From: Paracoccus sp. (in: a-proteobacteria)
GTDB taxonomy: Bacteria; Pseudomonadota; Alphaproteobacteria; Rhodobacterales; Rhodobacteraceae
Direction of reading: 5' to 3'
Assembly (NCBI GenBank): GCA_030538705.1
Contig: JAUNTL010000009.1
Location: 1 to 52,872, forward strand
Length of the DNA: 52,872 bases
Shown: positions 166 through 38,606 of the stretch, piece after piece
Layout of the letters: each line of letters begins with the position of its first letter
Numbering within the stretch: position 1 is the stretch's first letter
Made by a program: the position numbers and the translations under genes
Notes under the pieces: generated by a model
The model's database searches: none
Told to the model about the DNA's origin: nothing
The model's input: the letters and a program-made list of their open reading frames with translations, nothing else

Positions 166-1731
166 TCAGGTTGCGGGTCGGGTAAAGCCGCGGATCGTCA
201 TCAGCGCCTCATCCAGAGCCTGCCCCTCTTCATCCATCAGCGCGGCCTCGCGCAGACGCCGTATCCAGTCGGCGGCATCGGCGCGCCCGGTCAGGCTGTC
301 TGCGGCCGCCGTCACCCGGTCAAACTTGCTGATGCCGCGGCCATGCGTGTCGGAATAGCCCTTGATCAGCCGCCGGCAGCGGATCATCTCGACCGCCAGC
401 GCATAATCAGCCGCACGCAGCGACAGCGCACGCCCGAGCCAGAGGTTCAGGTGGTGCTGTTCCTGGGCATGACGAAGGCTGCGCAGGCGCCAGCCCCTCA
501 TGCCGCCCAGCAGATGCAGCAGGGCAAAGCCGATCATCCCGTCGCTGCGCAGCCGGCGGCCGTGGCCGAACAGCCGGTCAAGCCATTTCATCGCGCGCGC
601 GCTGCCCTGAATGCGCCGGCCCAGACCGGCGGGCATCATCCCGGCGATCTCTTCGGCGCGGGGATGCATGAACTCGGTCAGATGCATCAGATTGTCCCCG
701 GACACCCGCATCTCGTCGCGGATACGGCTCATGCGGGCGGGCCGGGTCTTGAGGTCGGCGACGCGGATCACATCGTCATAGGCCATGGCATTGGCGATAT
801 ATTTCGCCGCCTCGGCCGTCAGCAGCCAGTCCTGCGCGGCCTCGTCCCGGGCCAGAACCTCCTCCAGCCGGGCGAGATATTCCGCCCCGTAATCAAGATC
901 CTGAAAATCGACAACCTTGCGCAGACCGTGCCGGGCCATTGCCGCCACCGGCGCCGGCAGCGCCGCCACGCGCGCGGCCAGATCCTGCCAGCGGGCGCGC
1001 AGGGCGGCAGGGCCGGCGGGGCTGTCGGCGACCTGCCGCGCCGGGGCGTCATTATCGGGCGCAGCCGGCACAGAGGGGGCAGATGCCGCATCAAAGCCCG
1101 CGCCAAAGGCACGCAGGCTGGCCTCGACCCCCTTGCCGCCGGCGCGGATCGCATCCTCGAACGCCGCGCGCGGGAAGGGCAACGCCCCCGACCCCGCCAG
1201 CGCCCCGAAAAGCGAGGCCGAGATGACCGAGCCTTTGGCGATGGCCAGCCGGTCGAAATCGGCGGCGACAAGCTGGCGCGCGGCGATCTCGGCCGCGGCC
1301 ATGACCTCGTCCGAGGATGCGATCCCGTCGCCCGGCACCATCTTTTCGGACACCGCCAGCGCGCGATGCGTCGAGGCGATCAGCACGGTGCGGTCAGGCG
1401 TGACAAAGCCGCGCTGGATCGAGCGCCCGGCCTCCATCATCTCGGCCGCGATCATCACATCGACATCGCCGGCCGAAGGCGCCAGCGCAAAGACCGGCGC
1501 GGTGCCGCTGTCGGGTGCCATCTCGATATAATAGACCGTCGCCCCGGTGCGCTGTGCGACACCCGCCACGCTGGTCGCCTGCGCGACATAGCCGCCGCGC
1601 CGGGCCAGATCCTCGATCCAGCTGGTCAGCACGCCACCACCCTGCCCGCCGACGGCGAGGATCGCGACCTTGATGATCCGGTCCAGCCCGGGGTCGGCCG
1701 GCGCGGGCGAGAATGGCTGATGCAGCGTCAT
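166..1731 (-). CDS. iorB: Indolepyruvate ferredoxin oxidoreductase beta subunit (IorB family, with DUF6537-like C-terminus)
   Basis: This is the gamma/beta-type subunit of a 2-oxoacid:ferredoxin oxidoreductase, which with IorA oxidatively decarboxylates an aryl 2-oxoacid with CoA. The N-terminus carries the family nucleotide loop GGQGGG (residues 28-33), followed by the conserved region containing SVAGVAQRTGATVYY. From about residue 200 to 521 there is an extension of the type called DUF6537, mostly helical by eye. The protein is therefore longer than the roughly 200-residue archaeal IorB and is the proteobacterial form. The ATG overlaps the stop of iorA (ATGA), so the two are translationally coupled at the end of the leftward operon. 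I see no ferredoxin gene nearby. The substrate could be indolepyruvate, as named, or isatinate given the adjacent cyclase; this is inference. Confidence 0.88.
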   Translation of the reverse strand: MTLHQPFSPAPADPGLDRIIKVAILAVGGQGGGVLTSWIEDLARRGGYVAQATSVAGVAQRTGATVYYIEMAPDSGTAPVFALAPSAGDVDVMIAAEMMEAGRSIQRGFVTPDRTVLIASTHRALAVSEKMVPGDGIASSDEVMAAAEIAARQLVAADFDRLAIAKGSVISASLFGALAGSGALPFPRAAFEDAIRAGGKGVEASLRAFGAGFDAASAPSVPAAPDNDAPARQVADSPAGPAALRARWQDLAARVAALPAPVAAMARHGLRKVVDFQDLDYGAEYLARLEEVLARDEAAQDWLLTAEAAKYIANAMAYDDVIRVADLKTRPARMSRIRDEMRVSGDNLMHLTEFMHPRAEEIAGMMPAGLGRRIQGSARAMKWLDRLFGHGRRLRSDGMIGFALLHLLGGMRGWRLRSLRHAQEQHHLNLWLGRALSLRAADYALAVEMIRCRRLIKGYSDTHGRGISKFDRVTAAADSLTGRADAADWIRRLREAALMDEEGQALDEALMTIRGFTRPAT

Positions 1732-3875
1732 GGCCGGACCTCGAATGACAGACGGCGGGCGGCACGGCGGGACTGGAGCCAGGCGATAAGCCGGGCGCGC
1801 ATTCCGGCCAGCCGGCGCTCGGACCGGGTGGGGTTATGGATGACATCGGCGCGGTAGAATGACGGGCACAGAATCGCGGCATCCGCGACCTCGCCGCAAT
1901 TGCCACAGCCGACGCAACTGGTGTCGATCGCCGCCACGGGATCGTCGCGCAGGGGATCGTCCAGCCGCTTCAGCCCCAGCGAGGGGCAGCCCGACAGCCG
2001 GATACAGGCATGATCGCCGGTGCAGACATCCTCATCGACACCAAAGCGCGGCGCCTCGACGCGGCGGCCATCGCGGATCGCCTGCGCGCGCAGGGGCTTT
2101 TCGCGGCGCTGTTTGTTGAGCATGCATTCCGACGAGGCAACGATGACACGCGGGCCGGGCGCATCCGTTGTCAGCGCCTCAAGAAAGGTGTCGCGCATCC
2201 GGGCGACGTCATAGGTGCGGTCAATCTGGCGCACCCATTTGATGCCGATGCCCTTCAGCGCCCTGCTGATCGGGTTCTGCGTCGATTTCGTGCGGTTCTC
2301 GGCGCGCGAGGACATGACATCCTGCCCCCCCGTCGCGGCCGAGTAATAGTTATCGACGATCACCGCCACGCCGTCGGATTTGTTAAAGGCCATATTGCCA
2401 AAGCTGGAGGACAGCCCGTTATGCCAGAACCCGCCGTCACCGATAATGGCCACCGGGCGCCTTTCGCCGCCACCGTCAAAAGCGGCATTGGCCGCCGGGC
2501 CAAGACCGTAACCCATCGTCGCGCCGCCGATTTCAAACGGCGGCAGCGCGGCAAACAGGTGACAGCCGATATCTGCCGAGATCTGCAATTTTCCGGTCTC
2601 GCGCTGCGCCAGTTTCAGCGCAGCAAAGATCGGGCGCTCGGGGCAGCCGGTGCAGAACCCCGGCGGTCGGATCGGCACGGTGCGCGACAGATCGGGGATG
2701 GCGGCGCCTTCCGCGTTCGGGGCAAGAACCTGTGCGGGCAACATATCGGGCGCGGCCTCGCGCAGGAACTGCCCGATCGCATCCAGCATGACCTGCCCGG
2801 TATATTCGCCCGCCATCGGAAAGATGTCCTTGCCGCGCAGCCGCAGCCCGGAACCGGCGCGGTAAAGATATGCCGCAAGCTGCTGTTCGATGAACTCGGG
2901 CTGGCCCTCTTCGATCACCAGCACCTGATCCTTGCCCTTGCAGAAATCGGCGAACTCATCGGGCAACAGGGGATAGGTGACATTCAGCACATAAAGCGGG
3001 ATCTGCGAATTGCCGTGCAGATCGGCCAGCCCCAGCCGCTGAAGCGCGCGGATGGTGCTGTTATACATCCCGCCTTGCAAGACCAGACCGACGGGCGCCT
3101 CGGCGGGGCCGAACACCTCGTTCAGGCCCTTGGCGCGGATGAATGCCTCGGCGGCGGGGCGGCGCTTCTCGATCTTGTCGATCTCGTGGCGAAAGCTCAT
3201 CGGCGGCAGAACGACGCGGGCAAAATCGGATTGCGGATTGGACAATGCATCGCGCACCGACAGATCGGGGCGGCGGTTGTCGCGGGTGGGGAAGCTGCCG
3301 GTGACATGGCAGGCGCGAATGCGCACCATCAGCATGACCGGCGTGTTCGACGCCTCGGACAGCGCGAAACCATCGCCGACCGCGCCCACGATCGAGGGCA
3401 GGTTGGGGCGCGGATCGAGCAGCCAGAACTGCGATTTCATCGCGAAGGCATGGCTGCGCTCCTGCATGATGGACGAGCCTTCGCCGTAATCCTCGCCGAC
3501 GATGATCAGCGCGCCCCCGTTGACGCCCGATGACGCAAGGTTCGCCAGCGCGTCCGAGGCGACATTGACGCCGACCGATCCCTTGAAGGTCACCGCGCCG
3601 CGGATCGGATAATGAACCGAGGCCGCCAGCATGGCCGCCGCCGCCGCCTCGTTCGCATTGGCCTCGAAGCGCACGCCCAGTTCGGTCAGCAGATCCTCGG
3701 CATCCGCCAGCACATCCATCAGATGGCTGATCGGCGCGCCCTGATAGCCGCCGACATAGCCGACGCCATTTTCCAAAAGCGCCTTTGTGATCGCCAGAAT
3801 GCCCTCGCCGGTAAAGGTCTCGCCGGCGCCCAGCCGCAGATCCTCGATTTCGGCCTTGAATGATCGTTCCGCCAC
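1728..3875 (-). CDS. iorA: Indolepyruvate ferredoxin oxidoreductase alpha subunit (IorA family, ThDP enzyme with Fe-S tail)
   Basis: This is the thiamine-diphosphate subunit of a 2-oxoacid oxidoreductase. The N-terminal half is the pyrimidine-binding domain (YQGAPISHLMD region). The ThDP/Mg site is GDGGFWHNG around residues 479-487, followed by VDN. The C-terminal ferredoxin-like domain has Cys618, 624 and 630 and Cys654, 657, 660 and 670. The first cluster motif is CxxxxxCxxxxxC, not the CxxCxxC of archaeal IorA, a variant I associate with proteobacterial members. The start is GTG at 3875 with AAAGGAGA at 3881-3888 in ideal spacing. It lies 54 bases after marR and overlaps iorB. Known members make arylacetyl-CoA from arylpyruvate. 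Here the neighbouring isatin-hydrolase-like gene makes 2-aminophenylglyoxylate an alternative substrate, by inference. Confidence 0.9.
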   Translation of the reverse strand: MAERSFKAEIEDLRLGAGETFTGEGILAITKALLENGVGYVGGYQGAPISHLMDVLADAEDLLTELGVRFEANANEAAAAAMLAASVHYPIRGAVTFKGSVGVNVASDALANLASSGVNGGALIIVGEDYGEGSSIMQERSHAFAMKSQFWLLDPRPNLPSIVGAVGDGFALSEASNTPVMLMVRIRACHVTGSFPTRDNRRPDLSVRDALSNPQSDFARVVLPPMSFRHEIDKIEKRRPAAEAFIRAKGLNEVFGPAEAPVGLVLQGGMYNSTIRALQRLGLADLHGNSQIPLYVLNVTYPLLPDEFADFCKGKDQVLVIEEGQPEFIEQQLAAYLYRAGSGLRLRGKDIFPMAGEYTGQVMLDAIGQFLREAAPDMLPAQVLAPNAEGAAIPDLSRTVPIRPPGFCTGCPERPIFAALKLAQRETGKLQISADIGCHLFAALPPFEIGGATMGYGLGPAANAAFDGGGERRPVAIIGDGGFWHNGLSSSFGNMAFNKSDGVAVIVDNYYSAATGGQDVMSSRAENRTKSTQNPISRALKGIGIKWVRQIDRTYDVARMRDTFLEALTTDAPGPRVIVASSECMLNKQRREKPLRAQAIRDGRRVEAPRFGVDEDVCTGDHACIRLSGCPSLGLKRLDDPLRDDPVAAIDTSCVGCGNCGEVADAAILCPSFYRADVIHNPTRSERRLAGMRARLIAWLQSRRAARRLSFEVRP

Positions 3876-3929
3876 AGCCTTCTCCTTTGCGCTGGCGCAT
3901 GAGATCAGGACCGGCCAGGCGGCGGGCGG

Positions 3930-4412
3930 TCAGATCTCGTGCTTGCGAATATTGCGCAGGATCTTTTGCAGCGTGGCGACAAAAGCCTGCTTTTCCTCGG
4001 CCGGGATACCCCGGAACATACGTGCCTCGCTGGCCGCCATATGGGGCCAGAGATCATGGAATGCCGCGCGCCCCGCAGTGGTCAGATGACAGCGCATCGC
4101 GCGGCTGTCACTGGGGTCACGCTCGCGCCGGACCAGACCATCCGCGACCAGTTGATCAAGCGCGCGTGACAAGGTCGATTGCTCGACCACGGCATAGATC
4201 GCCAACTCGCGGATCAGCGGGCCTTCGATCACCGACAGCACCGCGAGAACCCGCATCTTGGGCGTGGTCAGACCGGCCCCCGCCAGTTCCTCGCGCAGCG
4301 AGGCGTTATAGCGCCCCATGATGCGATTCATCAGATAGGGCGGGAAACTGGTCAGCCCGATCTCGCCCAGTCTTTGGGGCGCGGCGCTGTCCTGGATCGG
4401 GGTATCGGTCAT
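3930..4412 (-). CDS. MarR family transcriptional regulator (first)
   Basis: This is a winged-helix regulator of about 160 residues. The visible parts are the dimerisation helix, the HTH (IRELAIYAVVEQSTLSRALDQL), the wing (RRERDPSDSRAM) and a C-terminal helix. I prefer ATG 4412 (MTDTPIQ) because AAGAG sits 8 bases upstream; in-frame GTG 4421 and ATG 4418 are alternatives. It lies between the cyclase gene and iorA in the same direction, 54 bases before iorA and about 120 bases after the cyclase gene, so it is probably in their operon. A role as an aromatic-ligand-responsive repressor of this locus is inference. It could be one of the proteins that reads the shared 17-base element at 5386 and 17351. 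Confidence 0.85.
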   Translation of the reverse strand: MTDTPIQDSAAPQRLGEIGLTSFPPYLMNRIMGRYNASLREELAGAGLTTPKMRVLAVLSVIEGPLIRELAIYAVVEQSTLSRALDQLVADGLVRRERDPSDSRAMRCHLTTAGRAAFHDLWPHMAASEARMFRGIPAEEKQAFVATLQKILRNIRKHEI

Positions 4413-4534
4413 GGGCATCACTCTTGCTTGGCCGGAACTGCGCCCCCTATGGGCCAGCCTCCCGCGAATGCCAAGCCGGCAGGCCCGCGACCACAGCGCG
4501 CATCGCGCGCGCAGGCCCCGGACCGCCCCACCCC

Positions 4535-5326
4535 TCAGCCCCGCGCGACGAGCGCCAGCGCCCGGATCGGAGACCCGGTGCCGCCCTCGATCTTGAGCGG
4601 CGCGGCAATCAGGATCGCCCCTTTCGGCGGCAAACGATCAAGATTGGCAAGCGAGGCCAGTCCGAACATGTTACTTGCATGCAGCAGGTTATGGGCCGGG
4701 AATGGCGGGTCCATGCCGCCGGCCTGTCCGGCATCCGTGCCGATACACTGGCTGCCCCAGCCGGTGATGCCCTTTGCGATCAGATAGCGCATCGCCTCTG
4801 GCGTCGGGCCGGGGCTGTGGGGACCGGTTTCATCGGCATTGAGAAAGCGCGCCTCGTCATCGGCGCGGCGGTCCCAGTCGCTGCGCAGCACGACCCATTC
4901 GCCGGGACCGATCTCGCCATGGGCGGCCTCCCATGCGCGGATATGATCCCCGGTCAGCAGGAAATCGGGGTTTTCGGCCACTTCGGCGCTGAAATCCAGC
5001 ACGTTCAGCGGCCCTATCAGGCGCTGCACATCCAGCGTGTCGGTGGCGCCATCCGCATAATCGCGGCCGGTGATCCAGTGATGCGGGGCATCGAAATGGG
5101 TGCCGGAATGCTCGCCCAGTTCCAGCCAGTTCCACGCCCAGAACGGGCCGTTCTCGTCATATTGGCTGATCTTGTGAATGCGGACCGGCGGCGTATCAAC
5201 GGCAAGCTCCGGCGGCAGCTTGAGCAAGGGCGTCGCCGGGCCGAGCGTCCCGCTGAGATCGACGACCTCGACCCCGCCCGAGACAATGAGCCGCGCCAGC
5301 GCCGCCAGATGATCGCTTGCAGACAT
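4535..5326 (-). CDS. Cyclase family protein, isatin hydrolase / kynurenine formamidase-like (first copy)
   Basis: This is a metal-dependent amide hydrolase of the cyclase (kynurenine formamidase-like) fold. The metal-binding signature HxGTHxDxPxH is complete: His73, His77, Asp79, Pro81 and His83. Length (263 residues) is normal for isatin hydrolase or KynB-like proteins. It has a strong ribosome site, GGAGGG, 4 bases before ATG. The 81-base gap upstream holds a palindromic element shared with a second promoter in the window, so this gene likely has its own regulated promoter as well as read-through from the TRAP genes. With iorAB downstream and a dioxygenase operon opposite, I favour ring-opening of isatin to isatinate. 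Formamidase activity on N-formylkynurenine or another lactam is possible. A paralogue lies at 15807-16592. Confidence 0.8.
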   Translation of the reverse strand: MSASDHLAALARLIVSGGVEVVDLSGTLGPATPLLKLPPELAVDTPPVRIHKISQYDENGPFWAWNWLELGEHSGTHFDAPHHWITGRDYADGATDTLDVQRLIGPLNVLDFSAEVAENPDFLLTGDHIRAWEAAHGEIGPGEWVVLRSDWDRRADDEARFLNADETGPHSPGPTPEAMRYLIAKGITGWGSQCIGTDAGQAGGMDPPFPAHNLLHASNMFGLASLANLDRLPPKGAILIAAPLKIEGGTGSPIRALALVARG

Positions 5327-5407
5327 TATTCCCTCCTGTTGCGGCGCCCCTTGTGGCGGGCGCGCTCACGCATCACGTTACGCCATAAATATGCATTTGC
5401 AAGTATA
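5327..5407. promoter_or_regulatory. Promoter region of the first cyclase gene
   Basis: This short gap lies between the stop of the second MarR gene and the cyclase start. On the minus strand a weak -35 (TTGCAA) lies inside the shared element and a possible -10 (TAACGT) follows 16 bases later. GGAGGG precedes the start codon. Confidence 0.45.
5386..5402. promoter_or_regulatory. Probable MarR-type operator, copy A of an exact 17-base element
   Basis: The plus strand reads TAAATATGCATTTGCAA. Its exact reverse complement recurs at 17351-17367 in front of the opine-dehydrogenase operon. Both copies are AT-rich islands in DNA of much higher GC, and both overlap candidate promoter elements. The copy at 17351 extends to a 20-base imperfect inverted repeat. 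Two MarR genes flank this copy, so binding by one of them is the obvious inference. Confidence 0.7.
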
Positions 5408-5926
5408 TTATTGCGCCGCCCCCGCCACCATCCGCCGCCACCAGCCGCGGCGGATGGCGGCGGTGATATCGCGGCTGGCGCTGCGGATCAGCTTGGACAA
5501 CAGCGCCTTGAGACGCTGCCCCTCGGACGGGGTCAGATGCTCGGCCAGAAAGGCGGCCTCCTGCGCGCGGGCGCGCGCGATCAGACCCGCGGCGATGGCC
5601 GCGCCTTCGGGGGCCAGCCAGACATGAACCTTGCGCCGGTCACCGCCCGCACGGCGCCGGGTGACAAAGCCGCGCCGCTCCATCCGCTCGATCACGCGGG
5701 TCAGGCGCGACTGTTCCATCTGCGCCAGCCGGGCCAGTTCGGTCACCATCTGGCCGTCATTATCCGACAAACAGGCCATGACCCGCCATTCCGCAACGGC
5801 GATGCCCGCGGCCATGACCTGCTGATGAAACGGATGGCTCGCCAGCCCGCTGGAGGTTGCCAGCAGAAATTGCAGGTAATCGTCCAGAAACGGCGCATCC
5901 TGCGCGACATCAGCCAGATCTGTCAT
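5408..5926 (-). CDS. MarR family transcriptional regulator (second)
   Basis: This is a 172-residue winged-helix protein. The recognition helix region is LARLAQMEQSRLTRVIERM and the wing is TRRRAGGDRRKVHVWL, both typical of MarR. GGGAGG lies upstream of ATG, and the gene begins 12 bases after the dctM stop, so it is cotranscribed with the TRAP genes. The shared 17-base element sits immediately beyond its 3' end. This makes it the best candidate for the regulator of the dioxygenase, cyclase and transporter genes, in the manner of MarR proteins that control auxin or aromatic-acid catabolism. Ligand and target are not shown by sequence. It differs clearly from the other two MarR proteins in the window (3930 and 27927). 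Confidence 0.87.
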   Translation of the reverse strand: MTDLADVAQDAPFLDDYLQFLLATSSGLASHPFHQQVMAAGIAVAEWRVMACLSDNDGQMVTELARLAQMEQSRLTRVIERMERRGFVTRRRAGGDRRKVHVWLAPEGAAIAAGLIARARAQEAAFLAEHLTPSEGQRLKALLSKLIRSASRDITAAIRRGWWRRMVAGAAQ

Positions 5927-5937: not shown

Positions 5938-7224
5938 TTACATCGAATTCGGGATCACCAATGCCAGCGCCGGCACGAATATCAAGAGCAGCAGGCGCAG
6001 GATGTCCATGATGACAAAGGGACCGACACCGCGAAAGATCTGTCCGACGGGCACGTCACGGGCAACAACGCGCAGCACAAAGACATTCATCCCCATCGGC
6101 GGGGTGATATAGCTCAGCTCAATCGCGATGACGATAAAGATGCCGAACCAGATCGGATCAAACCCGGCCGCCGAAACGATCGGGAACAGCACCGGCACCA
6201 CCAGCATCATCATCGACAGGCTTTCCAGAAGCGCGCCAAGGATCAGCAGCAGCACCGAAAGCAGCAAGATCAGCGCCAGCGGCGACAGGTTCAGCGATGT
6301 CACCCCGGTGCGGATATCCGCCGACAGGCCCGAAAGATTGACATAGTTCATGAAATAAAGCGCGCCCATCAGGATAAAGAACATCGCCGCCGTGGTCTTG
6401 CCCGTCTCGAACAGCGTGGCGAATGTGGCGCGCAATGTCAGCTTGCCGCGCAGCACGGTCAGCAAGAGCGCGCCCGCCGCCCCCATCCCCGCGGCCTCGG
6501 TCACGGTGAACACGCCCATATAGATGCCACCCAGAACAAAGACGAACAGCAACAGCGCCGGAAAGACCCCGCCAAGCGCGCGGATACGGTCGCGCAACGG
6601 CAGCCGCGGCAGGGTCGAGATCTGTTCCGGCCGCCACCACAGCGACAGCCGCACCGCCAGCATGTAACCGATCACCCCGACCAGTCCGGGCAGGATACCC
6701 GCCAGAAACAGCTTGCCGATATCCTGCCGCGTCAGGATGCCATAGATCACCAGAATGACCGAAGGCGGGATGATGATCCCCAGCGTGCCGCCGGCGGCGA
6801 TGCTGCCAGTGGCCAGCGTATCGGAATAGCCGTGCCGGCGCATGGCCGGCAGCGCGATCTTGCCCATCGTCGCCGCTGTCGCCAGAGACGACCCGCAGAC
6901 CGAGCCAAAGCCCCCGCAGGCGACAATCGTGGCCATGGCCAGCCCGCCCTTGCGGTGACGCAGCCAGGCATGGGCGGCGTCATAGATCTCGTCCGCGACA
7001 CCGGACTGGACGATGAAATTCCCCATCAGCAGAAACAGCGGCACCACCGACAGCGAATAGGTCTGCGCGGTATCGAAAAAGATCTGCCCGAGCATCGCCA
7101 GCGCGGGCGATATGCCGACGATGCTGGCCACCCCGACAAGGCCGACAAGGACCAGCGAAAAGCCGATCGGGATGCCGAAAAACAGCAACGCGAAAAGGAT
7201 CAACATTCCAATCGGCCAGTCCAT
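5938..7224 (-). CDS. dctM: TRAP transporter large permease (DctM/TRAP-T 12-TM subunit)
   Basis: This is the large membrane subunit that catalyses Na+-driven uptake in a tripartite ATP-independent periplasmic transporter. Its 428 residues form about 12 hydrophobic segments with the family landmarks (GGFGSVCGSSLATAATM, GGTLGIIIPPSV, ITPPMGMNVFVL). AGGAG precedes the start. It is third in dctPQM order, with a 54-base gap after dctQ. The substrate is most likely an organic or aromatic acid, given the surrounding catabolic genes. Nothing in the permease itself specifies it. Confidence 0.93.
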   Translation of the reverse strand: MDWPIGMLILFALLFFGIPIGFSLVLVGLVGVASIVGISPALAMLGQIFFDTAQTYSLSVVPLFLLMGNFIVQSGVADEIYDAAHAWLRHRKGGLAMATIVACGGFGSVCGSSLATAATMGKIALPAMRRHGYSDTLATGSIAAGGTLGIIIPPSVILVIYGILTRQDIGKLFLAGILPGLVGVIGYMLAVRLSLWWRPEQISTLPRLPLRDRIRALGGVFPALLLFVFVLGGIYMGVFTVTEAAGMGAAGALLLTVLRGKLTLRATFATLFETGKTTAAMFFILMGALYFMNYVNLSGLSADIRTGVTSLNLSPLALILLLSVLLLILGALLESLSMMMLVVPVLFPIVSAAGFDPIWFGIFIVIAIELSYITPPMGMNVFVLRVVARDVPVGQIFRGVGPFVIMDILRLLLLIFVPALALVIPNSM

Positions 7225-7278
7225 GCCTGCTCCTGACTGTGTAAGATCGGGGTGAAATGACGGGCCGTCCGGCCCGGA

Positions 7279-7758
7279 TCAGTTGCCGCGCGGCACGCGT
7301 GCCAGCGCCATGACCAGAACCACCACGCCCGAGACGATGCAGATCACCGAGGCCGCCCATGCCACCGGCCCCTGCGGGATCTTGAGAAACAGCGTCACCT
7401 GCCCGTAACCGGCGATGCGCGCGCCATAAAGCCACAGCTGCCAGCCGCCGATCAGCAGCGCGATCCCCGACAGCGCGCGGGCCAGAAACAGCTGCAATGC
7501 CAGCAAATCCCGGCCGAAACTCTGGGTGAACAGATCGGCGGTGACATGGCCATCATCCAGCGTGATGGCCGGCAGGCCGGCAAAGACCACGCCCATGACC
7601 AGAAGCTCGGTCAGTTCCTTGCCGCCCGACAGCGGGCTTGCGAACAGATAGCGGCCGACGACATCGACGACCGTCACGGCGGTGAGGGCCAGCAAAAGCA
7701 GGCCCAGCACCAGTGCCGTGACGAGACGCGCGCATGCGCGCAGGCGCTCGATCGTCAT
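7279..7758 (-). CDS. dctQ: TRAP transporter small permease (DctQ)
   Basis: This is a 159-residue membrane protein with four hydrophobic segments, the usual size of the DctQ component that pairs with DctM. The segment VVDVVGRYLFASPLSGGKELTELL matches the family's conserved region between helices one and two. Its ATG overlaps the dctP stop (ATGA), so translation is coupled to the binding protein. Confidence 0.9.
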   Translation of the reverse strand: MTIERLRACARLVTALVLGLLLLALTAVTVVDVVGRYLFASPLSGGKELTELLVMGVVFAGLPAITLDDGHVTADLFTQSFGRDLLALQLFLARALSGIALLIGGWQLWLYGARIAGYGQVTLFLKIPQGPVAWAASVICIVSGVVVLVMALARVPRGN

Positions 7759-8777: not shown

Positions 8778-8993
8778 CCGGTTGGCTCCCTGAGGGTTGG
8801 GTTGCGATGTGATTCTTTTTCACAAAGCGAAACACCAACCGCATCGCCGATCAATAAAAATATGAAACTGCATCTTTTTAAATTTGAAGTTGACAGGGCT
8901 AAATATGACATTTCATACTTTGCCGACAGGGATAAGAAACCGCCGCCAGCAAGCGCAGACCCACCGCCAGCACGACAGGGAACTGATATCGCC
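8778..8993. promoter_or_regulatory. Divergent promoter region, dctP (left) and dioxygenase operon (right)
   Basis: This 216-base intergenic region has an AT-rich core (about 8850-8925). On the plus strand TTGACA (8890-8895) and CATACT (8914-8919) are 18 bases apart. A 14-base palindrome (8904-8917) overlaps that -10. On the minus strand, toward dctP, TTCAAA and CATATT stand 18 bases apart. No small gene is visible. Confidence 0.6.
8904..8917. promoter_or_regulatory. Palindromic operator overlapping the -10 of the dioxygenase operon
   Basis: TATGACATTTCATA pairs at six of seven positions. It lies within TAAATATGACATTT, which matches the start of the 5386 element (TAAATATG then CATTT) apart from one inserted base. 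It may therefore be a diverged site for the same or a related MarR protein. Confidence 0.55.
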
Positions 8994-19499: not shown

Positions 19500-19537
19500 G
19501 CCGCCGGACATCAGCAACGACCAACAGGAGAAAACTC

Positions 19538-20530: not shown

Positions 20531-20533
20531 GCC

Positions 20534-21037: not shown

Positions 21038-21049
21038 GGAGCGCGCGCA

Positions 21050-23869: not shown

Positions 23870-24793
23870 ATGCGCCCGCGCCGTTTCCTTCCCTCGATGA
23901 GCCTTCTTCTGGCCTTTGAAGCGGTGATGCGCAACCGCACCGTCTCGGACGCGGCGCGCGAACTCAGCCTGACACAGTCAACCGTCAGCCGCCTGATCCG
24001 CACATTGGAAGAGCGGCTCGGACAGGAGTTGTTCTCACGCCAGAAAAAGCGCCTGATCCCGACCGATGCGGCGCTTGCCTATCAGCGTGAACTGGGGCGC
24101 GCGCTTGACATTATCCAGCGCGCCAGCATGGCGGTGACCGCCAACCCCGATGGCGGCAGCCTGTCCCTTGCCGTGCTGCCGACCTTTGGCACACGCTGGC
24201 TGGCCCCGCGTCTGCCGCAATTTCTGTCAGAAAATCCGGGCATTACCGTCAATCTTTCGACCCGGTTCGAACGTTTTGACACATTGGCCGAAAGCTTTGA
24301 TGCCGTCATCCTTTATGGTCAGCCCGACTGGCCGAACATGGGGCGGCTGAAGCTGTTTGACGAACGTCTGACCGCCTGCGCCGCGCCGGATTTTCTGGAC
24401 CGCCACCCTGTCCGCGGGACGCAGGATCTGATCGGGCTGACCCTGTTGCAGCTGGAATCGCGGCCGAGTGAATGGGCAGCCTGGTTCGCCGCCAATGGCC
24501 ACCCCGGTCCGGCGCCACGGGCGGGCATGCTGATGGATCAGTTCGCGATGATGGTGCAGGCGGCCATCGCCGGGCTGGGTGTGGCGCTGCTGCCCGACTA
24601 TCTGGCCCGGATCGAGATCGCCGAGGGCCGGCTCTGTGCGGTGCTGCGCCGCGCGCAGCCCGGCCCCGGCGCCTATTGGCTGGCATGGCCCGAGGACAAG
24701 GCCGAATCGCGGCCGCTTATCGCCTTTCGTGACTGGATTTCGGCGCAGCGCTTTGTCGATACCGGCGATGCCGCACAGGTCGGCGCCGGATAA
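23870..24793 (+). CDS. LysR family regulator (GcvA/GcdR-like)
   Basis: This is a LysR-type regulator of 307 residues. The N-terminal HTH (AARELSLTQSTVSRLIRTLEERLGQELF) is followed by the type-2 periplasmic-binding-like effector domain. I keep the start at 23870, because GcvA-like proteins commonly begin with a short basic leader before LLAFEAV. No clear ribosome site is seen at this or the next ATG (23897). It lies between gcdH (divergent) and the 2-aminobenzoyl-CoA operon (same direction), and both flanking gaps contain the same TTTCAAACTCAA element. It may control both, with glutarate or a CoA-pathway intermediate as effector; this is inference. Confidence 0.88.
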   Translation: MRPRRFLPSMSLLLAFEAVMRNRTVSDAARELSLTQSTVSRLIRTLEERLGQELFSRQKKRLIPTDAALAYQRELGRALDIIQRASMAVTANPDGGSLSLAVLPTFGTRWLAPRLPQFLSENPGITVNLSTRFERFDTLAESFDAVILYGQPDWPNMGRLKLFDERLTACAAPDFLDRHPVRGTQDLIGLTLLQLESRPSEWAAWFAANGHPGPAPRAGMLMDQFAMMVQAAIAGLGVALLPDYLARIEIAEGRLCAVLRRAQPGPGAYWLAWPEDKAESRPLIAFRDWISAQRFVDTGDAAQVGAG

Positions 24794-24822: not shown

Positions 24823-24898
24823 TATATCGGACCAGATGTAATGCTTTTCCCATCAGGCGGCCGCGCCCGTGCCGCATATGACAGCAGGAAGGCCACGA

Positions 24899-27184
24899 AT
24901 GAAGATCCTCTGCCTTGGCGGCGGTCCCGCCGGTCTCTATTTCGCGATCTCGATGAAGCTGCGCGATCCCGGTCATCAGATCACCGTTCTGGAACGCAAC
25001 AAGCCGAATGACACATTCGGATGGGGCGTGGTCCTGTCTGATGACGCATTGGGGCGGATGGCGCAGAATGATCCGGTCTCGACCCGGACGATCCGTGACA
25101 GCTTTGCCTATTGGGACGATATCGCGGTGATCCATGACGGGGTGCGCACGGTATCGGGCGGGCATGGTTTCGCCGGCATCGGGCGCAAACAGCTGCTTGT
25201 GGTCCTTCAGGCGCGCGCGCGCGAACTTGGCGTCGACCTGCAATTCGAGACCAGTTTCGATGATGTCGAGGCCCTGCGCGGCGATTATGATATCGTCATC
25301 GGCTGCGACGGGATCAACAGCCTGGTGCGCAAGACCTATGAGGATGTCTTTCGCCCCGATATCGACCCGCGCAAGGCCAAGTTCATCTGGCTGGGCACGC
25401 ATCAGAAATTCGACGACGCCTTTACCTTTATCTTCGAGAGGACCGAAGCGGGGTGGATCTGGGCGCATGTCTATCAGTTCGACGACAACACCGCGACCTT
25501 CATCGTCGAGACCCTGCCCGAGACATGGGACAGGCTCGGCTTTGACAAGATGACCAAGGAAGAAAACGTCGAGACCTGCCGCCGTATATTCGAGCGCCAT
25601 CTGGGCGGGCACGACCTGATGTCGAACGCCGCACATCTGCGCGGCTCGGCGGTGTGGATCAACTTTCCGCGCGTCATCTGCGAGACATGGTATCATGAAA
25701 ATGTCGTGCTGATGGGCGATGCGGCGGCGACGGCGCATTTCTCGATCGGCTCGGGCACGCGGCTGGCATTGGACAGCGCCATCGCCCTGGCCGAATATCT
25801 GCATTCCGAACCCGATATCGCAACCGCCTTTCAGCGCTATCAGGACGAGCGCCGCCTTGAGGTGCTGCGCCTGCAATCGGCGGCGCGCAACTCGCTTGAA
25901 TGGTTCGAGGAGGTCGAGCGCTATCTTGACCTGCCGCCAGAGCAGTTCGCCTATTCGCTGCTGACCCGCAGTCAGCGCATCAGCCATGAGAACCTGCGCC
26001 TGCGCGACGCGAACTGGCTGCGCGGGACCGAGGACTGGTTCCAGCGGCAGGCCGGCGGCCAGCCGGGCCGCGCGCCGATGTTCGCGCCCTATCAGCTGCG
26101 CGACATGACATTGAAAAACCGCGTCGTCGTCTCGCCCATGGCGCAATACAAGGCCGTGGACGGCCTGCCCGGCGACTGGCATTTCGCCCATTACGCCGAA
26201 CGCGCCAAGGGCGGTGCCGGGCTGGTCTATACGGAAATGACCTGCGTCTCCCCCGAAGGGCGCATCACGCCGGGCTGTCCGGGCATCTATACGCCCGAAC
26301 AGGAGGCCGCTTGGAAGCGGCTGACAGATTTCGTCCATGCCGAGACCGACGCCAGGATCTGCATGCAGATCGGTCATTCCGGGCGCAAAGGCTCGACCCG
26401 GATCGGCTGGGAGGGGATCGACCAGCCGCTGGAAAGCGGAAACTGGGAACTGATCTCGGCCTCGGCCATCGCCTGGTCGGACGAGAACCAGATCCCGCGC
26501 GAGATGACGCGCGCCGATATGGATATGGTGCGCGACCAGTTCACCGCCGCCACAAGCGCCGCCGCGCGCGCCGGCTTTGACATGATCGAGCTGCATGCCG
26601 CCCATGGCTATCTGATTTCCTCGTTCATCTCGCCGGTCTCGAACCTGCGGACGGATGACTATGGCGGGTCGCTGGAAAACCGCATGCGCTATCCGCTGGA
26701 GGTATTCACCGCCATGCGCGCGGCATGGCCGGCGCAAAAACCGGTCTCGGTGCGTATTTCCGCCAATGACTGGGTCGGCGAGGCCGGCGTGACCCCCGAA
26801 GAGGCCGTCGAGATCGCGCGCATGTTCGCGGATGCGGGCGCCGATATCATCGACGTCTCGGCCGGTCAGACCACGACCGAGGCACGCCCGGTTTACGGGC
26901 GCATGTTCCAGACCCCGTTCTCGGACCGTATCCGCAACGAGACCGGGCTGGCGACGATGGCTGTGGGCAATATCACCGAACCCGATCACGTCAATTCGAT
27001 CCTGCTGGCCGGGCGCGCCGATCTGGTCTGTCTGGCCCGTCCGCATCTGGCTGATCCCTATTGGACGCTTCACGCCGCGACCCTGCTGGGCGATGACGCC
27101 AGCCACTGGCCTGAACCCTATTGGAACGGCCGCGATCAGGCCCGCCGCCTGCGCGAAAAAGCCGCCGAGGCGATCCGGGTATGA
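24899..27184 (+). CDS. 2-aminobenzoyl-CoA monooxygenase/reductase (flavin hydroxylase fused to old yellow enzyme); salicylyl-CoA 5-hydroxylase type
   Basis: This is a bifunctional flavoprotein of 761 residues. Residues 1 to about 380 are a class A FAD monooxygenase: GGGPAG at 7-12, CDGINS, and [14 protein letters not shown] near 272. Residues about 395-760 are an old-yellow-enzyme-like NADH:flavin oxidoreductase: [33 protein letters not shown] and YGGSLENR. This architecture is that of the Azoarcus evansii enzyme, which hydroxylates and then reduces 2-aminobenzoyl-CoA to a non-aromatic 2-amino-5-oxocyclohexenyl-CoA. The start at 24899 is in frame with the conserved MKILCLGGG. Salicylyl-CoA is the alternative substrate often given in annotations. 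The co-operonic Rid and beta-oxidation genes favour the amino substrate. Confidence 0.9.
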
Positions 27185-27930
27185 CCATGGGCGCCATGCA
27201 TGGCAGGCGGGTGCTGGTCACCGGCGGCGGCTCGGGCACCGGCGCCGATCTGGCGCGCGGCTTTGCCGAGGCCGGGGCCGGGGTCGTCATCTGCGGGCGC
27301 CGGCCCGAACCGCTGGCCGAGGTCGCCGCCCGCCATCACGCCATCCGCGCGATAGCCTGTGACATCACCGACGAGGCATCGGTCAGCGACCTGTTCCGTC
27401 AGGCCGGGCCGGTCGACATCGTCATCGCCAATGCCGGGCAGTCGACCTCGGCGCCATTTGTCAAAACCTCGCTTGAGGATTGGCAGCGCATGGCTTCGGT
27501 CAATCTGACAGGCACCTTTCTGACCTTTCGCGAGGGGCTGCGTCAGATGACGGGCTGGGGCCGGCTGATCGCCGTGGCCTCGACCGCCGGGCTGAAGGGC
27601 TATGCGCGCACCGCCCCTTATGCCGCGGCAAAACACGGGGTGATCGGTCTGGTGCGTTCGCTCGCGCTGGAGGTGGCGGCACAGCCGGTCACGGTCAACG
27701 CGCTGTGCCCCGGCTTTCTCGACACCGAAATGACCGCCGCGACGATCCGCAACATCAGCGAAAAGACCGGACGTTCCGCCGGTGATGCCCGCGCCGCGCT
27801 GGAGGCGTTCAGCCCGCAAAAACGCCTGATCCGCCCTGATGAGGTGACGGCGGCGGCGCTGTGGCTGTGCGCGCCGGGGTCCGAGGGCATCAACGGCCAG
27901 CCCATCGCCATCGCCGGGGGCGAGATATGA
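27181..27930 (+). CDS. Short-chain dehydrogenase/reductase of the 2-aminobenzoyl-CoA operon
   Basis: This is an SDR of 249 residues with a [12 protein letters not shown] cofactor motif, NAG in IVIANAG, and catalytic YAAAK. The C-terminus [14 protein letters not shown] is typical. The ATG overlaps the monooxygenase/reductase stop, so it acts in that pathway, probably on the alicyclic 3-hydroxy- or oxo-acyl-CoA. The start could also be an internal ATG (MGAMHGRR) a few codons later. Confidence 0.9.
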
Positions 27931-28406
27931 CCGCCGGTCCCGCCAGCCCGCCCACGCCCGACACAAAGGCGAAAGAGGCGATGTCCAAGGCACGCCTGCG
28001 CATGTGGGTCCGCCTGCTGGGGGTCACGCGGCGCACCGAGGCGCAACTGCGCGAGTTCCTGCGCCTCAACCATGATGCCACCCTGCCGCGCTTTGACGTT
28101 CTGGCCGCGCTCTATCGCCGCGAGAGCGGCATCACCATGACCGAGCTGTCGCGCATGCTGCTGGTCTCGAACGGCAATACGACCGCTGTCGTCGACCGGC
28201 TGGAAAAGGACGGGCTGGCAAGCCGCAGCCCCTCGGCCACCGACCGGCGCACCACCTATGTCACCCTGACGCCCGCAGGGCGCCTGCGGTTTGACGAGAT
28301 GGCCCGCGAACACAGCGCCGAAATCGACCGCATCTTCGCCGCACTCGACAGCGACGAGATCGAACTGCTGACCCGGATTTTCAAGCGCATCGGAGCAACG
28401 ACATGA
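27927..28406 (+). CDS. MarR family transcriptional regulator (third)
   Basis: This is a 159-residue winged-helix regulator. The HTH is [26 protein letters not shown] and the wing is [17 protein letters not shown]. It is embedded in the 2-aminobenzoyl-CoA operon with ATGA overlaps on both sides, an unusual place that would give it operon-linked negative feedback. Such MarR proteins often respond to aryl-CoA thioesters (as BadR or HcaR-type regulators do); the ligand here is unknown. Confidence 0.88.
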
Positions 28407-29215
28407 CCGAACTCGCCGGGCTGCGCCCGAAGCATTTTCTTTGGCAGGTCACCGACCGCGTCGCCACGATCCGCCTTGACCGGCCCGAGCGCAAGAACCC
28501 GCTGACCTTTGACAGCTATGCCGAGCTGCGCGACACATTCCGCGCCCTGCCCTATGCAAGCGATGTCGATATCGTGGTTTTTGCCTCGAATGGCGGGAAT
28601 TTCTGCTCGGGCGGGGATGTCCATGACATCATCGGGCCGCTGGTCGATATGGATATGAAGGGGCTTCTGGCATTCACCCGCATGACCGGCGATCTGGTCA
28701 AGGCGATGATCGGATGCGGCAAGCCGATCATCGCGGCGGTTGACGGCATCTGCGTCGGTGCCGGCGCGATCATCGCCATGGCCTCGGATCTGCGGCTTGC
28801 GACACCGGATGCCAGATGCGCCTTTCTGTTTACCCGCGTGGGCCTTGCCGGCTGCGATATGGGGGCCTGCGCCATGCTGCCGCGCATCATCGGACAGGGC
28901 CGCGCGGCCGAACTGCTGTATACCGGCCGCGTGATGTCGGCGGATGAGGGGGCAGCCTGGGGTTTCTGGAATGCGATCCACCCCGCCGAGGCGCTGGAGG
29001 CCGAGGCCGCGCGCCTGGCCGGCCGCCTTGCCGCCGGGCCGGTCTTTGCCCATGGTATCACCAAGACCCAGCTGAACCAGGAATGGAACATGGGGCTGGA
29101 ACAGGCGATCGAGGCCGAGGCACAGGCACAGGCGATCTGTATGCAGACGCAGGATTTCGCCCGCGCCTATCACGCCTTTGTGGCCCGCGAGAAACCGGTA
29201 TTCGAGGGGAACTGA
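28403..29215 (+). CDS. Enoyl-CoA hydratase/isomerase family protein
   Basis: This is a crotonase-fold protein of 270 residues. The oxyanion-hole segments are GNFCSGGD (65-72) and the ICVGAGAII region (117-124). Comparing with canonical hydratase, the second catalytic Glu is kept (Glu170 in RAAELLYTG), but the first position appears as Phe in [11 protein letters not shown]. This hints at isomerase or ring-hydrolase chemistry instead of simple hydration; the alignment is by eye. It overlaps marR and sits before an acyl-CoA dehydrogenase, consistent with processing the alicyclic CoA thioester made by the monooxygenase/reductase. Confidence 0.87.
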
Positions 29216-29216
29216 C

Positions 29217-30353
29217 ATGGCCGATCACAGTTTTCTCGACTGGCCGTTCTTTGACGAACATCACCGTGAACTGGCCGATGCGCTTGATCAATGGGCGGCG
29301 GCCAACCTGCCGGCCGATCACAGCGACACGGATGCCGCCTGCAAGGGTCTGGTGCGCGATCTGGGCCGCGCCGGCTGGCTGAAACATTCGGGCGCCGACA
29401 GCGGCGAGCGGCTGGACGTGCGCAGCCTGTGCCTGATCCGCGAGACGCTGGCGCGCCATGACGGGCTGGCGGATTTTGCCTTTGCGATGCAGGGTCTGGG
29501 CATGGGCGCGGTCAGCCTCTTTGGCAGCCCGGCTCATCGCCGGTGGCTGGACAAGACGCGCAGCGGACAGGCGATTGCGGCCTTTGCCCTGACCGAGCCG
29601 GGATCAGGTTCGGATGTCGCCGCCACCGCGACCACCGCACAGCGCGACGGCGACGACTGGGTGCTGAACGGCGAAAAGACCTGGATCTCCAACGGCGGAA
29701 TCGCGGATATCCATGTCATCTTTGCCCGCACCGGCGAGGCGCCCGGCGCGCGCGGTCTGTCGGCATTCCTCATGCCCGCCGATACCCCCGGCCTGCATAT
29801 CGCCGAGCGGCTGGAAACCATCGCCCCCCACCCGCTGGCAACCTTGCGGCTGGAAAACCTGCGCCTGCCGGGCGAGGCGCTGATCGGCAATCCCGGCGAG
29901 GGGTTCAAGCTGGCGATGTCGGTTCTGGATGTCTTTCGCCCGACCGTCGGGGCGGCGGCCCTTGGTTTCGCGCGCCGTGCGCTTGACGAGGCGTGCGCGC
30001 GCGCGCGTGCGCGCCGCATTCAGGGCCAGCCGCTGGCCGATCTGCAACTGGTGCAGGGCCATATCGCGGATATGGCGCTTGGCATTGATGCATCCGCGCT
30101 GCTGATCTATCGCGCCGCCTGGGCCAAGGATATGGGCGCCGCCCGCATCACCCGCGAGGCCGCGATGGCCAAGCTGTTCGCGACCGAAACCGCGCAAAAG
30201 GTGATCGACTCGGCCGTGCAGCTGTTTGGCGGCGAAGGCGTGCGTTCGGGCGCCACCGTCGAGCGGCTTTACCGCGAGATCCGGGCGCTGCGCATCTATG
30301 AAGGCGCGAGCGACGTGCAAAAGATCATCATCGCCCGGAGTGTGCTGGCATGA
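29217..30353 (+). CDS. Acyl-CoA dehydrogenase of the 2-aminobenzoyl-CoA operon
   Basis: This is a FAD acyl-CoA dehydrogenase of 378 residues. The family signature [16 protein letters not shown] and the FAD-contacting WISNGG are present. The C-terminal catalytic-type segment is [19 protein letters not shown]. The start is ATG 29217, one base after the preceding stop codon. It differs from the GcdH upstream and would act on an alicyclic or pimelyl-type CoA thioester; the exact substrate is inference. Confidence 0.92.
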
Positions 30354-30757
30354 GCTATCGCCGCGAGATCCGGATCGAGTTCAACCACTGCGACCCGGCG
30401 GGCATCGTCTTTTTCCCGCGTTATTACGAAATGGCCAATTCGGTGATCGAGAATTTCTTCCGCGACGCGGTCGGCTATCCGTTTGAGCGGATGATGGCCG
30501 AGGGCGCCGGATCGCCCACCGCGCGGATCGAGACCGATTTCAGGGCGCCGTCGCGGCTGGGCGAGATGATCGGCTGGACCCTGCGCCTGCGCCGCCTTGG
30601 CGGCAGTTCCGCCACATTCGAGATGCGGGCCGAGGGCGGCGGCGTGACGCGGCTGATCACGACCCATGTTCTGGTCTGGCTGACGCCCGCCGGACGTCCC
30701 GGACCATGGCCCGATACCATTCGCGAAAAACTTGCTGACATGCTGGAGACGACATGA
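30350..30757 (+). CDS. 4-hydroxybenzoyl-CoA thioesterase-like hotdog protein
   Basis: This is an acyl-CoA thioesterase of 135 residues with the Pseudomonas-type active-site motif [16 protein letters not shown] (Asp15 as the catalytic acid). It has ATGA overlaps on both sides. It may release a CoA-bound dead-end intermediate or reset the CoA pool; aryl-CoA pathways commonly carry such a gene. Confidence 0.88.
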
Positions 30758-31155
30758 CCCACCAGTTTCTTAACCCCGCACATTGGAAACGTCCCAGCGG
30801 CTATTCCAACGGCATGGCCGCCTCGGGGCGGCTGGTTGTGACCGGCGGGATTATCGGCTGGAACAACGATTACGAATTCGAGACCGACGATTTCGCCGCC
30901 CAGGTCGATCAGGCCCTGCGCTCGATCGTCGAGGTTCTGGCCGAGGGCGGGGCCAGGCCCGAACATATCGTGCGCATGACCTGGTATGTCACTGACAAGC
31001 AGGAATATCTTGCGGCACTGCGCGACATCGGCCAGTCCTACAAGGCCCATATCGGCCGGCATTACCCGGCTATGGCACTGGTTCAGGTCGTCGCTCTGGT
31101 CGAGGACCGCGCCAAGGTCGAGATCGAGGTCACGGCCGTCATCCCCGAGGGTTAA
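30754..31155 (+). CDS. Rid (RidA/YjgF) family protein lacking the usual arginine
   Basis: This is a trimeric Rid-family protein of 133 residues. The C-terminal signature KVEIEVTAV is conserved. The Arg that binds the substrate carboxylate in imine-deaminating RidA (PARSxVQV) is replaced by Met107 in YPAMALVQVV. It is the last gene of the 2-aminobenzoyl-CoA operon. I infer hydrolysis of the enamine/imine in the aminocyclohexene-CoA intermediate, with release of ammonia; a CoA-ester substrate would not need the carboxylate-binding Arg. Confidence 0.86.
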   Translation: MTHQFLNPAHWKRPSGYSNGMAASGRLVVTGGIIGWNNDYEFETDDFAAQVDQALRSIVEVLAEGGARPEHIVRMTWYVTDKQEYLAALRDIGQSYKAHIGRHYPAMALVQVVALVEDRAKVEIEVTAVIPEG

Positions 31156-38605: not shown

Positions 38606-38606
38606 G

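Follow-up and report, generated by a model that had tools for sequence, protein, structure and literature searches.

A stretch of 52,872 nucleotides from a Paracoccus genome (3.4 Mb, 87% complete), which we will henceforth refer to as the window, carries within 31 kb (positions 166-31155) the auxin-degradation genes iadCDEFGHIJ, two isatin hydrolase genes, the IorAB-type gene pair iadA and iadB, and an operon for a 2-aminobenzoyl-CoA monooxygenase/reductase (ACMR). This arrangement suggests that a complete iad-type pathway for indole-3-acetate (IAA) probably feeds isatin to ring cleavage through a CoA-acylating 2-oxoacid oxidoreductase, IadAB; judging by its genome context, we consider it likely that IadAB turns isatinate and CoA into 2-aminobenzoyl-CoA. 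An earlier note on this DNA had proposed a joined route of this kind, starting from an indole-3-acetate-like acid. That substrate class is borne out by homology (an IadD orthologue, and a MarR regulator closest to the IAA-binding 3CDH of Ruegeria pomeroyi), and, within the limits of homology and gene co-occurrence, so are the order from IAA through isatin to isatinate and the join to 2-aminobenzoyl-CoA. The claimed novelty has to be narrowed: iorB/iotA are known as markers and the conversion of IAA to isatin has been published as the iad route, while what is new, as far as the literature searched shows, is the join from isatinate to 2-aminobenzoyl-CoA, which on the genomic evidence is well supported by association.

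By homology, the cluster is an iad auxin-degradation locus; that such loci lead from IAA to isatin and contain IorAB was already known. Against PDB structures, IadD matched Variovorax IadD 9o71 (585 bits) and 7yls (580 bits), with the next family reaching only 151 bits. Known iad-like loci (Variovorax paradoxus CL14, Bradyrhizobium japonicum and R. pomeroyi DSS-3) share with it an IadR-type MarR and the iadAB markers. The gene order from C to J is that of the nine-gene Variovorax region named in PMC12633357 and that of the R. pomeroyi megaplasmid, at 44-64% identity gene by gene. R. pomeroyi degrades IAA, its MarR 3CDH binds IAA with a KD of 0.237 uM, and iorB/iotA (iadB/iadA) have been described as exclusive markers of iad-like loci (PMC9613470). 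Compared with known iad-like loci, the window adds a second isatin hydrolase, places iadAB on the divergent strand and has an ACMR operon 14 kb from iadD; it has TRAP importers instead of the ABC binding protein found beside the Variovorax operon, and holds together within 31 kb the three parts that sit apart on one megaplasmid in R. pomeroyi. The iaa pathway of Aromatoleum has the same start (IAA) and end (2-aminobenzoyl-CoA) compounds but is anaerobic and employs other genes, iaaABC and onwards (PMC9613470); none of its enzymes was named among the family matches read in the window, where no iaa reference sequence was used as a query.

In the pathway we propose, IadCDE together with IadJ would oxidise IAA to dioxindole-3-acetate (a step published for Variovorax and assigned here by homology) and IadF would form its CoA ester (a published proposal). 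IadG and the DUF35 domain of IadH would then cleave this beta-hydroxyacyl-CoA in a retro-aldol reaction to isatin and acetyl-CoA, as their active-site residues suggest, and IadI and the second hydrolase, being homologous to characterised isatin hydrolases, would open isatin to isatinate. The fifth and new step would fall to IadAB, a predicted thiamine pyrophosphate (TPP)/[4Fe-4S] oxidoreductase yielding 2-aminobenzoyl-CoA and CO2 from isatinate and CoA and passing electrons to an acceptor; ACMR and the beta-oxidation-like genes, by their families, would finally degrade 2-aminobenzoyl-CoA. The genes for steps 1-5 lie on two divergent units, possibly with one IadR-controlled promoter region, and the ACMR operon appears to be regulated separately.

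We found the activity of a CoA-acylating isatinate:acceptor oxidoreductase attributed to no enzyme. The proposal would give a function to iadA and iadB, which mark auxin-degrading loci that alter plant root growth, and would explain why genomes with IadA mostly carry ACMR. If it is true, anthranilate would be a side product wherever this route runs, and the chemistry of thiolase-fold retro-aldolases would extend from steroids to indoles.

IadAB and the proposed step from isatinate to 2-aminobenzoyl-CoA

Isatinate is 2-aminophenylglyoxylate, an aryl 2-oxoacid, and enzymes of the OFOR family convert a 2-oxoacid and CoA into an acyl-CoA and CO2, with the conversion of phenylglyoxylate to benzoyl-CoA as a precedent. 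IadAB has the traits of this family (a TPP domain, a POR gamma domain and conserved Fe-S-type cysteines), and shares them with the phenylglyoxylate:acceptor and indolepyruvate oxidoreductases, from which it differs in its two-subunit form with DUF6537, its proposed substrate and its aerobic setting. In an alignment of 16 sequences, C408, C411, C438 and C584 of IadA, which we take to be the ligands of the proximal Fe-S cluster, were invariant, as were seven cysteines in C618-C670. The NCBIfam names and the homology to IorA and IorB would also fit an indolepyruvate oxidoreductase, acting upstream of the pathway to make indoleacetyl-CoA from tryptophan-derived indolepyruvate. We regard this as highly improbable, given that IadA scored 257 bits against the IorA model TIGR03336, far under the equivalog cut-off of 651, and that it accompanies isatin hydrolase and ACMR in genomes lacking IadD, where no use for indoleacetyl-CoA is seen. 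Among the matches listed in the open-access literature we recognised neither a published role for IadA or IadB nor a paper on the conversion of isatinate to 2-aminobenzoyl-CoA by an Ior-type enzyme, and the main text of the preprint assigning the iad pathway mentions neither gene.

The role of IadAB as an isatinate oxidoreductase draws its main support from gene co-occurrence. In a family survey of 394 genomes from 393 genera, the same genomes were searched for IadD, ACMR, IadA and the ligase that usually accompanies ACMR. IadD was found in 35 genomes (63-100% identity, with the next best match at 35%), ACMR in 144, the ligase in 135 and IadA in 93; nine of the latter hold only a sister IorA subfamily (51-57% identity), and setting these apart left 84 IadA-positive genomes and 310 others. 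ACMR was present in 77 of the 84 genomes with IadA versus 67 of the 310 without it (p = 5e-33 from raw counts, which ignore genome size and descent). The same held among IadD-negative genomes (45/49 with IadA versus 67/310 without), and the sister subfamily had ACMR in only one of its nine genomes. IadA and ACMR shared a contig in 31 of the 77 genomes and lay at most 30 kb apart in 24 (15 of these without IadD), compared with about one expected from random placement in 4 Mb.

Two further sets of genomes gave a similar picture. A class-wide draw of 162 genomes from 151 genera had IadA in 20, ACMR in 25 and both in 16, so that ACMR was found in 16/20 IadA-positive genomes versus 9/142 others (p = 1.6e-12, or 8e-12 leaving out the window's own genome). 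Of 32 named genomes that carry IadA loci, 31 had ACMR, those of Mesorhizobium, Hoeflea and Bradyrhizobium among them; this set stems from 33 of 80 named IadA loci, themselves drawn from at least 582 relatives, and it overlaps the draws in part and is thus not fully independent (loci L187 and L030 share one IadA gene, the contigs of L122, L128, L150 and L157 equal contigs of G285, G148, G280 and G355 in length, and the genome of L156 has the same ACMR place as G497). On a quick IadA tree (78 rows, 77 different proteins), in which a named locus was scored as not linked when no ACMR lay within the stretch examined, linkage to ACMR switches no fewer than 14 times. This co-occurrence supports the assignment of IadAB to the 2-aminobenzoyl-CoA route.

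The neighbourhoods of IadAB in other genomes bear on its role as well. In the 60 of the 80 named loci that were at least 20 kb long, IadA was accompanied by IadB in 60, by a MarR of the type found at 3930-4421 in 53, by isatin hydrolase in 45, by ACMR in nine and by IadD in only two. A span of 17 kb on a plasmid of Alloyangia pacifica encodes ACMR, isatin hydrolase, IadA and IadB together with an indole monooxygenase and a flavin reductase; the genes listed for 32 kb of this plasmid include no Rieske gene, and IadD matches, seen on 35 plasmids, did not include this one. Five further loci (L078, L080, L087, L127 and L145) also have the indole monooxygenase close to IadA or ACMR. Such neighbourhoods, with isatin hydrolase, indole monooxygenase and rarely IadD, are more in keeping with a general function from isatin to 2-aminobenzoyl-CoA than with one limited to auxin or one acting on indolepyruvate. 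The broader proposal suggested by this genomic company is that IadAB is an isatinate:acceptor oxidoreductase at the hub of a widespread isatin hydrolase-MarR-IadA-IadB module serving auxin, indole and perhaps other indolics and bypassing free anthranilate, with retro-aldol release of isatin by IadG and IadH; we give this combination an even chance of being correct.

Both predicted cyclases of the window carry the isatin hydrolase metal motif HxG[T/A]HxDxPxH (as given in PMC6117287) and are closely homologous to characterised enzymes. The earlier note had held that finding the dioxygenase/thiolase set consistently without isatin hydrolase and iorAB would count against the route. We found IadA in all 35 IadD-positive family genomes and IadI in 27 of 34 IadD stretches, some of which were ended by contig ends; yet IadA lies inside only eight of these 34 stretches, and so mostly does not adjoin IadD.

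ACMR consists of a FAD monooxygenase fused to an OYE-type reductase and passes the family model PRK08255; a related known system is the aerobic 2-aminobenzoyl-CoA (anthraniloyl-CoA) pathway with the ACMR of Azoarcus/Aromatoleum evansii (PMC6221969). The locus resembles that pathway in combining the fused enzyme with beta-oxidation-type genes and differs from it in lacking the CoA ligase near ACMR, IadAB being the proposed source of the CoA ester. The ligase of ACMR operons in other genomes is closest to the anthranilate-CoA ligase 4wv3 and was near ACMR in 34 of 35 loci examined of IadD-negative genomes (part of 112 such loci). This usual ligase is missing from the ACMR locus of the window; a probable anthranilate-CoA ligase (77% identity) is found elsewhere in the genome, on contig C193, which rules out a clean either/or replacement of the ligase in this genome. 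The direct coupling that the earlier note proposed is backed by gene company without being exclusive. As a candidate for the missing ligase, iadF was ruled out by its 26% identity to anthranilate-CoA ligase. Among ACMR-positive genomes, IadA was present in 9/10 without the ligase versus 68/134 with it (p = 0.016); the exception is a 62% complete genome, and G138 was counted as ligase-less although its ACMR contig ends soon afterwards (L032).

An alternative explanation is that the cluster is a usual iad locus whose end product is free anthranilate, from which a ligase encoded elsewhere makes 2-aminobenzoyl-CoA, while IadAB has another role or provides a minor bypass and the adjacency of ACMR reflects a general clustering of aromatic-degradation genes. 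Such a scheme agrees with the ligase present in this genome, with the separate regulators and the lack of a shared operator before ACMR, and with the report that Variovorax makes anthranilate from iadC-K2 alone (PMC12633357). We nonetheless think it unlikely, given that IadA predicts ACMR even without IadD and its sister subfamily does not, that nine ACMR-positive genomes have IadA and no ligase match, and that isatin hydrolase and IadAB occur together without a nearby IadD, once with indole monooxygenase and ACMR. In favour of the IadAB step, C8H7NO3 (the formula of isatinic acid) and C7H7NO built up strongly only in Variovorax strains overexpressing iadC-K2, a region named without iadAB (PMC12633357); in our own reading, these may be isatinate and its decarboxylation product, building up when IadAB is missing.

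Several observations weigh against IadAB as the link between isatinate and 2-aminobenzoyl-CoA. No assay of any IadAB was found in the open-access literature searched, and the formation of anthranilate by Variovorax iadC-K2 without iadAB (PMC12633357) means that IadAB is not needed there. Seven of the 84 IadA-positive genomes have no ACMR, three of them with IadD (G014, G108 and G370); 68 of the 134 genomes with both ACMR and the ligase also carry IadA; and the ligase contrast is modest and based on ten genomes, several of them incomplete. In the class draw without the window's genome, IadA matches of at least 56% identity gave ACMR in 11/12 and weaker ones (52-55%) in only 4/7, meaning that the boundary of the IadA family is not sharp at that distance, and the co-occurrence statistics as a whole ignore genome size and descent. 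The ACMR family model carries the name salicylyl-CoA 5-hydroxylase and the sequence does not settle the substrate; owing to the ligase on C193, free anthranilate could also feed ACMR; the Alloyangia plasmid too bears an anthranilate-CoA ligase orthologue (70.6%); and the putative IadR operator described below was found in none of 78 regions upstream of ACMR.

Some further features of these loci stand beside the argument. A thioesterase adjoining iadAB was considered as general evidence of a CoA product and rejected, as it lies within 1.5 kb in only two of 77 IadAB loci with 2 kb on both sides, one of them that of R. pomeroyi (L016 also has a thioesterase and was left out, its iadAB being at the stretch edge). 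In 38 of 99 IadA loci, isatin hydrolase occurs jointly with a FAD amine-oxidase-like gene and an Opp-type binding protein; the amine-oxidase-like gene and the Opp-type ABC importer (L113-L192, e.g., L115:7953-9512 (+)) are perhaps tied to the source of isatin where iad and indole monooxygenase genes are absent. In L027, L030, L186 and L189, isatin hydrolase and IadAB are linked to an ACMR cluster of a distinct kind, which includes a cupin and a fumarylacetoacetate-hydrolase-like gene; no ligase is shown in these four stretches. On the R. pomeroyi megaplasmid, a ligase-bearing ACMR operon (442000-464000, L194), whose ligase SPO_RS21865 is 84% identical to the one used in the survey, lies beside tryptophan 2,3-dioxygenase, hinting at a kynurenine-anthranilate feed; this dioxygenase was found in 17 of 80 ACMR stretches, the R. 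pomeroyi query included. Finally, the conjugative plasmid 3 of Variovorax sp. PBS-H4 (L196) has a lone IadA-like gene flanked on both sides by IS1071 transposases, with equal-score matches in three Hydrogenophaga records, another Variovorax record and one uncultured-bacterium record.

Possible direct release of isatin by IadG and IadH

Dioxindole-3-acetyl-CoA is a tertiary alcohol at C3, beta to the thioester, and cannot be oxidised to a 3-oxoacyl-CoA, which makes ordinary beta-oxidation by that path impossible. The active-site residues of IadG suggest that, with the DUF35 domain of IadH, it may instead split this ester directly into isatin and acetyl-CoA. Specifically, Tyr282-Asp-Asp284-Tyr and Gln327/Gln332 were found in all 34 rows of the IadG alignment (32 distinct sequences), and the R. 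pomeroyi protein has the motifs at the same positions. The position that we read as that of the thiolase nucleophile holds Ser in 30 rows, Cys in three (including the window's own copy) and Ala in one, and all 34 rows have GQ where thiolases have the motif GHP. The thiolase-like/DUF35 pair described in the earlier note is present as domains, with the DUF35 part not separate and instead fused to an SDR domain; this SDR domain has no YxxxK motif (no Y...K at 301-340) in 32/32 aligned rows.

The retro-aldolase Sal, which works with a DUF35 partner, employs Tyr302 and Cys304 and has Gln347 and Gln352 close by (PMC12329534); matched by motif and spacing, Y282, D284, Q327 and Q332 of IadG lie at a constant offset of 20 from these residues. 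With the steroid side-chain retro-aldolases Ltp2 and Sal, IadG/IadH share the thiolase superfamily, a DUF35 partner, the tyrosine of the YDxY/F motif and a Sal-like Gln pair (PMC12329534). They differ in an Asp that takes the place of the Cys of Sal and the His of Ltp2, in the fusion of DUF35 to an SDR-like domain rather than a hydratase, and in the indolic tertiary alcohol as proposed substrate. The Asp, and the Cys at the presumed nucleophile position of the window's copy, count against a retro-aldolase. Among the matches listed in the open-access literature, no paper on retro-aldol cleavage in the iad route was recognised.

The published view, that IadG works as a thiolase, is in line with its annotation, with the Cys in three of 34 rows and with the build-up of C8H7NO2 in an iadI mutant (PMC12633357). 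We consider it possible yet doubtful: the position in question is Ser or Ala in the other 31 rows, GQ replaces GHP throughout, the SDR domain of IadH lacks YxxxK, general chemistry does not allow the tertiary alcohol to become a 3-oxoacyl-CoA, and the C8H7NO2 could have arisen by cellular reduction of isatin.

Regulation of the three gene groups

From k-mers common to the regions upstream of iadC we derived a palindromic motif, ATATGANNNTTCATAT, a putative IadR operator scored as present at a threshold of at least 11 of 13. It was found upstream of iadC in 26 of 36 loci (25/35 distinct), a figure that is not independent, as the motif came from these same regions. Unlike this figure, the contrast with the upstream regions of other genes is an independent test: the motif was present upstream of the dctP1-type gene in 12/23 cases and of the IadR-type MarR in 12/23, compared with 0/552 random windows, 0/77 upstream regions of MarR_R2, 4/101 of IadA and 4/63 of isatin hydrolase B. 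In the window it occurs only between dctP1 and iadC, where the exact copy overlaps the best sigma-70-like site (8890-8919). In R. pomeroyi it was not found in the 400 bases upstream of iadC (best 8 of 13). One shared regulon for all three operons, whose joint induction by IAA the earlier note had suggested checking, is not supported, there being no operator before ACMR.

The probable IadR has Ser and Arg at the positions of S28 and R46 in MarR_73 (with numbering inferred from spacing); 22 of 23 aligned relatives share the Ser, the other having a gap, and the closest solved relative is 3CDH. For the second MarR the best solved match is 3CJN, followed by 7KYM, a MarR from B. japonicum that PMC9613470 regards as an IadR binding IAA. 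The ACMR operon has its own regulators, and its MarR has 3BOQ as its closest solved relative; over the stretch shown, the 3BOQ sequence is that of SPO_RS20370, which adjoins IadAB and a thioesterase in R. pomeroyi.

The leftward unit runs dctP-dctQ-dctM, the iadR-type MarR, isatin hydrolase, the second MarR, iadA and iadB. Downstream from dctM its gaps are, by coordinates, 11, 81, 113 and 54 bases, and no leftward terminator-like site is reported inside these gaps, so that a single leftward transcript is possible. On this arrangement, IAA could act on the iad operon and, by way of the leftward unit, also on IadAB and the second isatin hydrolase.

Layout of the locus and its surroundings

The 31 kb comprise the leftward unit, a divergent rightward unit and the ACMR group (Table 1). 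From a shared intergenic region of 216 bases, the rightward unit runs iadC-D-E-F-G-H-I-J, an octopine-dehydrogenase-like gene, a 3-hydroxyacyl-CoA dehydrogenase and a second TRAP set; the third group consists of an acyl-CoA dehydrogenase, a LysR gene and the ACMR operon. Family and PDB matches recovered every enzyme type listed in the earlier note, including the Rieske dioxygenase with its reductase gene upstream of the alpha subunit and the two isatin-hydrolase-type cyclases (one matching hydrolase A, the other hydrolase B), as well as its two TRAP importers and three MarR genes. One name could not be established: the gene called glutaryl-CoA dehydrogenase is an acyl-CoA dehydrogenase scoring 213 bits in the glutaryl model, against a cut-off of 470.

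Table 1 Features of the iad-ACMR locus in the window
Feature	Position	Strand or place	Evidence
iadB, IorB-type gamma domain fused to DUF6537	166-1731	-	NCBIfam PRK08312 687 bits, cut-off 348; POR PF01558 and DUF6537 PF20169
iadA, IorA-type TPP subunit with C-terminal Cys cluster	1728-3875	-	TIGR03336 257 bits, below cut-off 651; TPP_enzyme_C
MarR accompanying iadAB and isatin hydrolase	3930-4421	-	best PDB 3cjn 188 bits, then 7kym 82 bits
Second isatin hydrolase (hydrolase-B type)	4535-5326	-	PF04199; PDB 4j0n isatin hydrolase B 459 bits; HSGTHFDAPHH
iadR, probable IAA-sensing MarR repressor	5408-5926	-	best PDB 3cdh 122 bits, then MarR_73 structures
TRAP importer dctM-dctQ-dctP	5938-8777	-	TIGR00786, PF04290, TIGR00787; same strand, shortly upstream of iadR
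Putative IadR operator, two copies (ATATGANNNTTCATA)	8860-8918	dctP1/iadC divergent region	exact copy 8903-8917
iadC, reductase (Fer2 and NAD-binding)	8994-9968	+	PF00111, PF00175; 44% identity to R. pomeroyi
iadD, Rieske oxygenase alpha	10004-11332	+	585 bits to PDB 9o71 IadD; 64% to R. pomeroyi
iadE, Rieske oxygenase beta	11329-11796	+	listed open reading frame (ORF) begins 11299
iadF, AMP-forming CoA ligase, proposed dioxindole-3-acetyl-CoA former	11793-13391	+	family match
iadG, thiolase-family protein, proposed retro-aldolase	13388-14560	+	Y282-D-D284-Y, Q327/Q332
iadH, DUF35 (ChsH2-type zinc ribbon and OB fold) fused to SDR domain	14557-15810	+	PF12172, PF01796, SDR Pfam matches
iadI, isatin hydrolase (hydrolase-A type)	15807-16592	+	413 bits to PDB 5nnb; HTGTHFDAPSH
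iadJ, SDR dehydrogenase	16589-17305	+	listed ORF begins 16460; 53% to R. pomeroyi SPO_RS20465
Octopine-dehydrogenase-like gene, 3-hydroxyacyl-CoA dehydrogenase, second TRAP importer (19463-22348)	17428-22348	+	family matches
Acyl-CoA dehydrogenase near ACMR operon	22567-23766	-	68-83% identity matches near ACMR in L054, L064, L097, L106, L110
LysR regulator (GcvA type)	23870-24793	+	family match
ACMR, 2-aminobenzoyl-CoA (or salicylyl-CoA) monooxygenase/reductase	24869-27184	+	PRK08255 1296 bits, cut-off 1078; FAD and OYE domains
Remaining ACMR operon: SDR, MarR (27861-28406), enoyl-CoA hydratase, acyl-CoA dehydrogenase, thioesterase, RidA	27181-31155	+	

The octopine-dehydrogenase-like, 3-hydroxyacyl-CoA dehydrogenase and TRAP genes of the rightward unit recur adjoining IadAB in L157 and near IadAB in L128 and L129. 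Beyond the locus, positions 31368-41263 hold amino-sugar/sialic-acid-type genes (a NanR-like regulator, nanE, a nanK-like gene, nagB, a DapA-family gene and an Opp-type ABC importer that includes a permease-ATPase fusion ORF at 36617-38680), and positions 42161-46450 hold a biotin carboxylase, 5-oxoprolinase-type carboxyltransferase domains and LamB/YcsF, a set resembling genes for the use of 5-oxoproline.

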